A stretch of 35,369 nt of DNA. Origin: Butyrivibrio sp. GTDB lineage: Bacteria; Bacillota; Clostridia; Lachnospirales; Lachnospiraceae. Of this stretch, positions 3,305-11,895 are shown one piece after another. The stretch covers positions 1 through 35,369 of the forward strand of contig JAILMY010000136.1 in NCBI GenBank assembly GCA_024692165.1, written 5' to 3'. The notes under the pieces are model-generated. The model did no database searches and was not told where the DNA came from. It was given only the letters and a program-made list of their open reading frames with translations. Position 1 is the first letter of the stretch; each line of letters begins with the position of its first letter. A program made the position numbers and the translations under genes.

Positions 3305-4111
3305 CTATGCCGGCTTCTTCGTCAGATACAGCACATAAGTATCATGAAACTCGACTTTATCTCCGCTCGCAAGCACCACACTTCGGAGTCCTTCGAAAAA
3401 CTTCGTTTTGTAGGGCTCGGGGATCAATATGTGATCGCTGTGTGTGCCGCAATACATCACATATTCATCTGCAGAAAACGTGCGCTTTCCGTAAAAATCA
3501 TGCCGCGTCATTTCTACATAGCCATAGTCCGTCGCATGCAGATAGTCAAAAGGCTCCTTCATATTCTTATATTCCGTCATCGGCTTATAATATTCATCGT
3601 AAACCTTCTGTATATTGCTGTACAGCTCCTCATTGGGTGTCTTATAATCCCCAATCAGAAACATCATCGCCAGCGTTCCGCCGGGCTTTAGCAGTTCAAA
3701 TGTCTTGGAAAAAGCGATTTTCTCCGGAATCCACTGGATTGTCGCAGCAGAGTATATCACATCAAACTTCTGCTCCCCAAAATCGTGTGTTATAAAGTCA
3801 TCGTTCACGATGTGGAAATTTGGACTTGCTCCATATTTTTCTTTCATCTTCTCATAGAGATGCTCCCCAAGCTCAATGGCATTATAATCACAGCCGGTAC
3901 TCAGGATCGGATCTGTCGCCTGGCCGGTTCCCGGGCCGATTTCCAGCACCTTCGTCTTAGCTCCAATGCCGGCTTCCTTAATGAAATATTTGAACAGATC
4001 CGCGCTGTAGTGAGGTCTAAACTTATCAAACTGCTCCGGGATTGTATCAAAAACCTTGCGATATTCCATAGTCTCCCCACTCATCCCACTATTCATACCA
4101 TTCTCTCCCAT
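3305..4111 (-). CDS. Class I SAM-dependent methyltransferase
   Basis: KVLEIGPGTGQATDPIL motif I, FDVIYSAATIQWIPE, LLKPGGTLAMM. Confidence 0.88.
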   Translation of the reverse strand: MGENGMNSGMSGETMEYRKVFDTIPEQFDKFRPHYSADLFKYFIKEAGIGAKTKVLEIGPGTGQATDPILSTGCDYNAIELGEHLYEKMKEKYGASPNFHIVNDDFITHDFGEQKFDVIYSAATIQWIPEKIAFSKTFELLKPGGTLAMMFLIGDYKTPNEELYSNIQKVYDEYYKPMTEYKNMKEPFDYLHATDYGYVEMTRHDFYGKRTFSADEYVMYCGTHSDHILIPEPYKTKFFEGLRSVVLASGDKVEFHDTYVLYLTKKPA

Positions 4112-9018: not shown

Positions 9019-10869
9019 TTATTTTCCGCTCATTAGAATCTTTTTGACAGTTATTATATTATCCCTGTCGCTCTGCTTATAGTCCACGTTCCTGCCGGTG
9101 ATGGCGTTCTCGTAGTCTGAAAGTTCATCCAGATCATCCCAGGGGATGAGACATGCGTGAAGTTTATTTGCCGGATCCTTGGTGATCCTGGTCTTCCCGT
9201 CCTGCTTGTACATTTCGGCCCGCTTATCTTTTTCCTCATCACTCATGGTTGAATAACCCATGGAGAAATGGAAGGCGCACCATCTGTGGTGCTCGGACTT
9301 AGCCAGGTTCTCCAGCTTCTCTCCGTCAATAGTTAAATCTTTTCCGATAAATCCAAGGCGCTGGAACAGTGTCTGCAGATAGTCCGCGCTGGCTCTGCAG
9401 CTCATGCGGCTGAAGTAGTCGCATTCTGCCCACTGTTTATCTATACTTCCATCATCGCCGCAGTAGTAGTGATTGATTTCCATTGCCAGCTGGTCCATCT
9501 TGCCGGTGTAGAGAATGTCTGCGTCATAAATGGCGCTCTTTTTCCTCTCCTTGCCTACCCGGTAGCAATATACTCTGTCCTTAAGGCACTGGTAGATGGG
9601 CATTGAGATTCCTCTCTCTCTGAGAATCTCCTGAAATCCATAGGCAATCTCTCTGCCTGTCTTCTCATCTCCCACCGCCACAACGATGTATTTCAGCGAC
9701 TTTGCATGTTCCATCACATATTCCGTGGCGCTGATGCTTCGGCCATCGGAGGATGAAAAATCGATGTTATAGTTATCAAGCATTGACTGATAGCGCATCT
9801 TAAACAGGCCATTGGTCTCATCAAGAGCTGAGTCAAAGACCTTTACGTGGAAATTACTGCCCTCGAACTGTCCGTTTGCCACCAGCTTACGAAGAACCTC
9901 CTGCCCCAGGTGGCCAAATCCCACCAGAAGACACTCTGCATCCGCAGTTGCCCTATAGTTTTCGTCAAATGTAATTGCGTTACACAATGGATATTTCTGT
10001 AAAAGAACTCTCGCCACCAGCTCTGCTCTGTCAAAGACCTTTACGGAGCCGTAGCCGTATCTCTCTGAAGTATTAAAAAAGACTTCACCCTGAGTTTCTT
10101 CTCTTCCAAGCATCACAAGCTTGGTCTGCTCGGGCTTTATGCCGCAGTCCTCCAGGGTTTTAAGGAGCATTCTGGCATAGGAGATATTGGAGTCCACATC
10201 ATCCGCCAGGGCGTTAAGTCTAATGGAGCCGCTACCTTTTTTTACAGATAAGCGCTTTAAGAATTTGGGTCTGACCTTTGTTGCTATCTCATCTGTGTAT
10301 AGCATTCCGCCTAGAGCCCTTATATCCGCTTCTCTTGAGGATGAATCAGAAACGTAGACCACTGAGACCTTCTTGTTTGTAGCCAGCTTTTTGCCAAATT
10401 CAATGGCGTTGTCATCAGTACCGTAGATAAGCTCAATATCATGGATTCTAAAGAGCCAGGCTCTGAGCCTGTTGATGGCATTTTTGCCGAGGGTTGTCAC
10501 CACGGCACTTACCAAAGCATAGTAGCCAAAGAAATGGATTACCCAGAAAACCAGTATCCAGCCCGGTGCTCCATCCACAAGCTTGGAGAAGTCGTCCACT
10601 CTGTTGACACCGCCGAACATCCTGACGATATCGATCATGGTGCGGAGGATTGCAACAGGGCTAAAGCCCACCACAAAGGCATTAATGCTGCCGTATATAA
10701 AAATTCCTCCAAGGATAGCCACAGTAAAGGCTATTCCCGACCATTTCTCCCTATTGTCCGCATCCAGCGCCAGGTAACTTATAAGTGCCAGAAACAGCGC
10801 TGCTGATAATGCGATTACTGCTAAACTTTGTGCCCAAACCATACAAAACTCCCACAGGACCGCTCCCAA
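9019..10869 (-). CDS. Membrane protein with about 3 N-terminal TM helices, two TrkA-N/RCK-like Rossmann segments and a C-terminal RyR domain
   Basis: TM helices; IELIYGTDDNAIEFGKKL and CLLVGFGHLGQEVLRKL; C-terminal LENLAKSEHHRWCAFHF...KLHACLIPWDDLDELS resembles the RyR domain. Confidence 0.8.
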   Translation of the reverse strand: MGAVLWEFCMVWAQSLAVIALSAALFLALISYLALDADNREKWSGIAFTVAILGGIFIYGSINAFVVGFSPVAILRTMIDIVRMFGGVNRVDDFSKLVDGAPGWILVFWVIHFFGYYALVSAVVTTLGKNAINRLRAWLFRIHDIELIYGTDDNAIEFGKKLATNKKVSVVYVSDSSSREADIRALGGMLYTDEIATKVRPKFLKRLSVKKGSGSIRLNALADDVDSNISYARMLLKTLEDCGIKPEQTKLVMLGREETQGEVFFNTSERYGYGSVKVFDRAELVARVLLQKYPLCNAITFDENYRATADAECLLVGFGHLGQEVLRKLVANGQFEGSNFHVKVFDSALDETNGLFKMRYQSMLDNYNIDFSSSDGRSISATEYVMEHAKSLKYIVVAVGDEKTGREIAYGFQEILRERGISMPIYQCLKDRVYCYRVGKERKKSAIYDADILYTGKMDQLAMEINHYYCGDDGSIDKQWAECDYFSRMSCRASADYLQTLFQRLGFIGKDLTIDGEKLENLAKSEHHRWCAFHFSMGYSTMSDEEKDKRAEMYKQDGKTRITKDPANKLHACLIPWDDLDELSDYENAITGRNVDYKQSDRDNIITVKKILMSGK

Positions 10870-10902
10870 AGTCCTAAATTCTTTTTCTCTCGAATAAATA
10901 AA

Positions 10903-11895
10903 TCAATCTTCGATGCCCAGCTGCTTTCTGCACTCGGTATTAAACATTTCCAGAACATTGTCCGGCCCGATGATCTTTACCAGGCCGCCCATGGCAAATA
11001 CCCAGCCAAAGAACTGCCCGCTTATCATGACCGTAACTCTTGTATCGGACCAGCCCTCCTCGCCTGAGGGTTTAATGGGAATGTCTTTTCCGAATCTGTC
11101 GATGACAATTCCCACCATATCATTTTTGAACCTGAGATTAACAGGTACCCCTGCTGCCTTTCCGAACATGCCAAAATTCATGTTGATATAGCTGGCCATG
11201 TCGATGGCTTCAAAGACATCCCTTCCCTCTCTCTTTTTGTCCACGATGGTGAGATCTCTGATCTTGTCTACCCTGAAGTGCTTTATCTTGGCTTCCTCAG
11301 TGTCATAGGCAATAAGGTAGTAGTTTTCATCATCCCAGGTCAGTGCCCAGGGGCTTTCCTCGTAGAGCCCCTCCCTCCTTGGCACCAGCTCTTTTTTCAG
11401 GTTCCAGGTAAGATACTCAAAGGTTATCTGCTTGTTACCAAGAATGGCTGTGTGGAGCTCATCGACTATGTAGTAGATACTCTCATTCATAGTCTTGACC
11501 CTGCCCTGAACCTCCACCTGACGCCTTAGCTCTTTTGCCTGATATTCACTGACAAGACCGGTTATCTTATCAATGAGCTCGTCAGACTTTTTGGCGGTGA
11601 TGAATTTGGAGGACTGGACCGCGTCCACAAGGAGCTTAAGTTCAGCCATTTCAAACTGCCTTGCTCCTAAGTGGTAGTAGTAACTACGCCCCTCCTGCTC
11701 CATGATAATGTCAACACCCAGACCACGAAGAGCCTCTATGTCGTCATAGATACTCTTTCTGTCCGCCTCAATGCCATATTCTTCCAGGTGCGAAAGTATC
11801 TCAGGCATAGTGAGGTAGTGCTCATCATCAGTATATTTGGTCATTATCTGGTTGAGATAATACAGTTTCAGCTTTTGATTTGCACCCCGTGCCAT
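10903..11895 (-). CDS. HTH + WYL-domain transcriptional regulator
   Basis: DRKSIYDDIEALRGLGVDII (HTH), SPWALTWDDENYYLIAYDTEEAKIKHFRVDKI (WYL core and WCX-like C-terminus). Confidence 0.92.
   Translation of the reverse strand: MARGANQKLKLYYLNQIMTKYTDDEHYLTMPEILSHLEEYGIEADRKSIYDDIEALRGLGVDIIMEQEGRSYYYHLGARQFEMAELKLLVDAVQSSKFITAKKSDELIDKITGLVSEYQAKELRRQVEVQGRVKTMNESIYYIVDELHTAILGNKQITFEYLTWNLKKELVPRREGLYEESPWALTWDDENYYLIAYDTEEAKIKHFRVDKIRDLTIVDKKREGRDVFEAIDMASYINMNFGMFGKAAGVPVNLRFKNDMVGIVIDRFGKDIPIKPSGEEGWSDTRVTVMISGQFFGWVFAMGGLVKIIGPDNVLEMFNTECRKQLGIED

Follow-up and report, generated by a model that had tools for sequence, protein, structure and literature searches.

The subject of this study is gene A, a minus-strand gene in a 35,369-nucleotide stretch of DNA (hereafter the window), namely positions 1 to 35,369 of contig JAILMY010000136.1 from a Butyrivibrio sp. 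(assembly GCA_024692165.1), whose nearest relatives stand at 81% and 79% at the protein level. A encodes a membrane protein that has two RCK domains in tandem and ends in a RyR domain. We propose that A is probably a membrane receptor-effector of TIR signalling, in which an ADP-ribose-type signal made by a TIR enzyme gates a pair of RyR-RCK channel proteins, A and its paralogue B. A preliminary description of the window had pointed out two adjacent genes on the minus strand, A and an upstream HTH-WYL regulator, and both are present. It had also suggested nucleotide-type sensing by the membrane protein, which is supported here as likely, and a link to a nucleotide-centred conflict system. A signalling enzyme is indeed linked to A, but it is a TIR protein and not the WYL regulator; it was missed because it lies outside the window.

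Fold of A and its K+ channel paralogue

The AlphaFold2 model of A, built with 57 homologues, has a mean pLDDT of 92.8 and a pTM of 0.83. The N-terminal transmembrane (TM) helices noticed earlier in the sequence reappear in the model, where the last two flank a pore-helix-like segment. Both of the Rossmann-like segments claimed for A hold up by fold, as the best solved-structure matches in Foldseek are GsuK (1e-5), TrkA (4e-5) and MthK (3e-4). The second reads GFGHLG, an intact GxGxxG motif, while the first reads YGTDDNAIEFG and lacks it. The whole-chain TM-scores against these matches are low (0.2-0.3), and are read as reflecting a different domain arrangement. A shares the pore module and the tandem RCK domains with GsuK, MthK and TrkA, and differs from them in the added RyR domain, the extra TM helix, the TIR linkage and the lack of a K+ filter. 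Where TVGYG would be expected, the pore loop has a conserved MFxGxN motif (M75 in 55/57 homologues, F76 in 53/57, G78 in 55/57 and N80 in 38/57). A thus has the pore module and the RCK gating ring of an RCK-regulated K+ channel without its TVGYG filter, and for this reason we describe it, from the model, as channel-like and do not class it as a K+ channel. The gene is under strong purifying selection (nonsynonymous divergence, dN, 0.12-0.15; synonymous divergence, dS, saturated). Pfam, NCBIfam, PHROG and PADLOC gave no informative label for A, and a Foldseek search of viral structures found no significant match.

A RyR-family search of the same genome revealed B, a separate gene on contig C129. 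B is a 2TM K+ channel with a TTVGYGD filter, RCK domains and a RyR domain; its fold matches GsuK (6e-8) as well as Slo1 and KcsA, and its profile matches KcsA at ~1e-18. The profile-profile comparison of A with B gives a probability of 99.85% across 410 columns, including the RyR domain. In our census of 80 homologous A loci, B directly adjoins A in 47, and the two genes, always on one strand, mostly follow each other directly, A first or B first, with abutting or overlapping frames. The earlier opinion that a simple potassium channel is unlikely therefore fits A, which lacks TVGYG, but leaves aside that B, the paralogue usually found next to A, is a genuine K+ channel.

A third TM-RCK-RyR subfamily of ~460-490 aa without the K+ filter (L024:7938-9401, L025:1731-3161 and L028:7899-9287) occurs as single genes beside TIR, TIR-TPR or DUF4062 genes; in Butyrivibrio this subfamily is present and is near TIR_2 genes in 0/16 cases. 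Some A proteins (L040:5130-8696, L042:7995-11417 and L067:7998-11417) carry, as a fusion, one more TM helix together with an outer C1 protease of the papain type that bears a Lectin_like domain. Proteases recur around A loci, with a clostripain-family gene in L021 and an M48 peptidase gene in L023.

The RyR domain and its ligand-type residues

How secure is the RyR assignment in A? A single A sequence gets no such call from Pfam. The isolated C-terminal domain, searched against the PDB, retrieves RyR-family entries only (best 2.4e-4, for a query differing at the first residue), and the family profile of A matches RyR1 at 1.9e-4, which bears out the C-terminal RyR domain of the preliminary description by the profile test set beforehand. 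The profile of B matches RyR1 at 2.5e-22. The PF02026 (RyR/R12) profile is matched by C-type members and by B, the latter slightly under the curated cut-off, and A is connected to it both through its family profile and through B. The sequence comparisons thus assign the C-terminal domain of A to the RyR type, weakly from one sequence and carried by the strong homology to B.

Prokaryotic RyR domains were reportedly placed in nucleotide-centred conflict networks by Burroughs et al. in 2015. A direct point of comparison is RyDEP, a phage RyR-domain protein that binds and cleaves 2'/3' cyclic ADP-ribose (2'/3'cADPR) through H75, W78, H100 and D117 (PMC13232231). The corresponding residues of B, H464, W467, H489 and D506, match the RyDEP spacing exactly (3, 25 and 17) and are invariant or nearly so. 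In A, H518, W521, H562 and D592 are kept in 56-57 of the 57 homologues in the same order as in RyDEP; A has insertions here, so the correspondence of D592 rests on motif order. By sequence, the R12-type domains of A and B thus appear to share all four ligand residues (H, W, H, D) with RyDEP. The settings differ, in that the RyDEP proteins are small phage anti-defence proteins, whereas here the domain stands at the C-terminal end of a channel-like membrane protein encoded by the host.

Linkage of A to TIR genes

A TIR gene lies near A, that is, within 6 kb, in 44/80 loci, and in none of them on the opposite strand. B and TIR are both found in 23/80 loci, and B or TIR in 68/80 (48/56 among the loci with long flanks). 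Within the same Butyrivibrio genomes, 13/28 A matches have a TIR gene within this distance, as compared to 1/107 other K+ channels (Fisher p 1e-9), and a TIR_2 gene is present in 23/23 genomes with full-length A versus 33/56 others (p 8e-5); these p-values are only indicative, since related genomes are not independent. The 79 Butyrivibrio genomes (~2-5 Mb) hold 115 TIR_2 matches, so that proximity by chance would be expected at ~1% or less. In the deposited sequence of a B. fibrisolvens D1 plasmid, a TIR protein is independently annotated ~320 bp upstream of A. The A loci span Lachnospiraceae, Oscillospiraceae, Erysipelotrichaceae, Mogibacterium and Synergistaceae. In Synergistaceae and certain Butyrivibrio, loci commonly have A and TIR but no B next to A; the converse, B and TIR with no A alongside, is also found. 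As either paralogue can accompany TIR without the other alongside, the two seem to be TIR outputs that are independent in part.

Two A matches (L119 and L121, from G303 and G336) contain one TAA inside the matched stretch, near which the gene calls end; this may be a natural stop. A distant A-like protein is encoded on L206 (MT835673.1), a contig whose deposit labels it an unverified faecal bacteriophage.

Next, we characterised the TIR partners. Pfam assigns TIR_2 to 47/52 and ThsB_TIR to 33/52 of them, and 49/56 retain Glu where the catalytic residue is usually found. A TM helix is predicted in 53/55, a single one in 51 of these. The TIR domain is usually N-terminal and is followed by the TM helix at about residues 190-210 and then by ~600 residues (median, 626 beyond the helix) of WD40, Sel1 or unassigned sequence. 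Lys and Arg are richer before than after the helix in 52/53 proteins, and the TIR domain is therefore predicted to be cytosolic, with the sensor part outside.

Tandem TIR genes occur in six loci (L081, L087, L090, L096, L107 and L111). The first product, of ~280 aa, lacks both the motif with which TIR domains usually start and the glutamate motif W..E, and could be an inactive partner beside an active one.

Proposed mechanism and alternatives

TIR enzymes can make signals of the 2'/3'cADPR type (PMC13232231, PMC10022894). This ability, together with the RyDEP residues kept in A and B, leads us to propose the following pathway. First, the TIR protein, with its cytosolic TIR domain, single membrane helix and outer repeat-type sensor, would be activated. 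The activated TIR would then convert nicotinamide adenine dinucleotide (NAD+) to an ADP-ribose-type signal, either a cADPR isomer or another ADP-ribose derivative, which would bind the C-terminal RyR domains of A and of the K+ channel B. Binding would shift the RCK gating ring and thereby open or close the pore. Finally, the altered K+ flux and membrane potential would arrest or protect the cell. Our computations gave the fold and domain make-up of the two paralogues, their homology and adjacency, the TIR linkage, the retained RyR ligand residues and the predicted TIR membrane topology; from them we infer the identity of the signal, the gating of the pore, conduction by A or only its assembly with B, and a possible antiphage outcome.

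A role in conflict is also supported by an Arcobacter plasmid, in which a split RCK-RyR-DUF4062 cluster lies beside a type I restriction subunit, DUF4062 being reported to act as an antiphage NADase of a TIR-like kind (PMC13174449).

Several observations weigh against this proposal. A lacks the TVGYG filter, and 12/80 loci have neither B nor TIR nearby; some of these are short contigs, and others are not (L035, L036, L038, L039 and L080). In the genome of the window itself, A with WYL, B with DUF4230, and TIR with NUDIX lie on three separate contigs. The invariance of the EHxRW..AF motif is partly selected, since this was the scan pattern with which the homologous loci were fetched; H562 and D592 lie outside the pattern. 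Of eight further phage RyR homologues in the RyDEP study, six bound cADPR signals, and cleavage was seen with none (PMC13232231). Lastly, PADLOC recognised no known system among 99 neighbouring proteins and returned only scattered mad3-, mad8- and capP-type matches, so that the enrichment in defence islands anticipated in the preliminary description is not seen.

The split trio in the window's genome is kept in both nearest genomes with low dN, and has therefore been co-inherited although unlinked. A, B and TIR may be coupled functionally in this organism as well, where the TIR protein (contig C158) has the common layout of N-terminal TIR, one TM helix and outer repeat-type part.

We consider it unlikely that A is an ordinary RCK ion-homeostasis protein of the GsuK or TrkA kind, responding to NAD, ADP, ATP or cations, with the RyR domain as a minor add-on and the TIR adjacency arising from shared mobile or stress loci. 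The fold matches to GsuK, TrkA and MthK suit such a protein, as does the position of A loci among housekeeping rather than defence genes. However, the comparison with other K+ channels given above ties the TIR adjacency to the RyR-bearing family in particular, and the rare, patchy occurrence of A (13/299 family genomes) is unlike that of a housekeeping channel.

It is also rather improbable that the RyR domain of A is a membrane-bound sink or hydrolase, a RyDEP-like glycosidase or sponge, which damps the TIR signal while B is the true effector. The residues matching the RyDEP catalytic pair H75/D117 (PMC13232231) are kept in A, and the K+ filter is present in B and absent in A, as such a division of labour would have it. 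A sink, however, would not need the complete and confidently modelled pore module, the gating ring and the conserved pore loop that A possesses, and many loci have TIR and A without an adjacent B.

Finally, the idea that WYL controls A and cooperates with it as a defence unit is very improbable, and we reject the WYL-RyR pair as a functional unit: the genes share a strand, show no terminator-like site between them and stay adjacent across a 60 bp gap in three close genomes (G000, G330 and G335), but WYL adjoins A in only 2/80 fetched loci, those of the two nearest relatives, so that the conserved linkage expected earlier fails, and it is far commoner than A and usually encoded at a distance from it, with orthologues in 59/79 Butyrivibrio genomes, 28 of which have any A match.

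If the TIR-to-channel pathway is correct, gated ion flux joins the known outputs of TIR immunity, and the A, B and TIR loci offer a small, tractable bacterial system for TIR-to-ion-channel signalling. More speculatively, and we put this forward only tentatively, these proteins could be bacterial cADPR-gated channels, in which an outer-sensor TIR makes a messenger that directly gates RyR-RCK channels with one K+-selective subunit and one MFxGxN-pore subunit. TIR would then act by ion flux, neither depleting NAD+ nor making lesions in the membrane, and the RyR domains of animals would descend from such channels. The relation of the animal R12 domain to cADPR is a question reopened by the phage RyDEP work.

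Relation to known systems

In Thoeris, the TIR protein ThsB acts with a nucleotide-activated ThsA, of which one variant is a TM-macro membrane protein (PMC11204291). The likeness lies in a TIR gene beside a putative nucleotide-responsive effector, which are adjacent in the 44 loci above and unlinked in the window's genome, and in the ThsB_TIR matches of the partners. The effector here, in contrast, is a RyR-RCK channel pair instead of SIR2-SLOG or TM-macro, and the TIR partner is predicted to sit in the membrane as well, with a large sensor outside. PADLOC matches neither A nor B to a known ThsA type, and we therefore do not class this putative system as Thoeris. A second likeness is to Swarozyc: a DUF4062 gene lies beside RyR genes in L025 as well as in the Arcobacter plasmid. 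Swarozyc is described as a portal-activated NADase, and the text of its report names no channel or RyR partner (PMC13174449). Apart from the RyDEP preprint, our literature search returned no work that joins Thoeris to a potassium channel, or TIR to RyR and RCK; a 2025 preprint on TIR systems (Yirmiya) may overlap and is the main caveat on novelty.

Gene arrangement in the window

Features of gene A and its upstream neighbour in the window
Feature	Positions	Strand	Remarks
Gene A, TM + tandem RCK + RyR protein, 607 aa	9022..10842	-	stop codon 9019-9021; alternative TTG start 10869
Extra N-terminal TM helix, residues 2-26	10765..10839	-	AlphaFold2 and hydropathy
Outer pore-module helix, residues 28-58	10669..10761	-	AlphaFold2
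Pore-helix-like segment and loop, residues 62-92	10567..10659	-	AlphaFold2 and conservation; segment itself 62-76
Inner pore helix leading into cytosolic part, residues 93-133	10444..10566	-	AlphaFold2
RCK/Rossmann domain 1, ~residues 135-299, without GxGxxG	9946..10440	-	AlphaFold2 and fold match
RCK/Rossmann domain 2, ~residues 300-447, GFGHLG intact	9502..9945	-	AlphaFold2 and fold match
RyR (R12-type) domain, ~residues 466-607, helical; ligand-type H518, W521, H562, D592	9022..9447	-	
HTH-WYL-WCX regulator, directly upstream of A	10903..11895	-	Pfam WYL 2.7e-11

The ATG at 10842, with GGGAG immediately 5' of it, is the likelier start of A. The product of 616 aa and the gap of 33 bp from the WYL stop given in the preliminary description hold for the TTG start, and give way to 607 aa and 60 bp with the ATG. 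The HTH-WYL identity of the upstream gene was correct. WYL may regulate A locally, and it is not a general part of the A system. A terminator-like stem separates the WYL gene from a GH31 gene upstream of it, and an EAL/GGDEF gene lies downstream of A. On contig C158, NUDIX and FRG-domain genes are located directly upstream of the TIR gene (L032:4847-6376); the NUDIX gene is kept in both nearest genomes, and its product could be a hydrolase of the ADP-ribose-type signal. Elsewhere in the window (3305-4111), a 268-aa protein matches PADLOC mad2 (1.3e-16), probably as a generic domain match.
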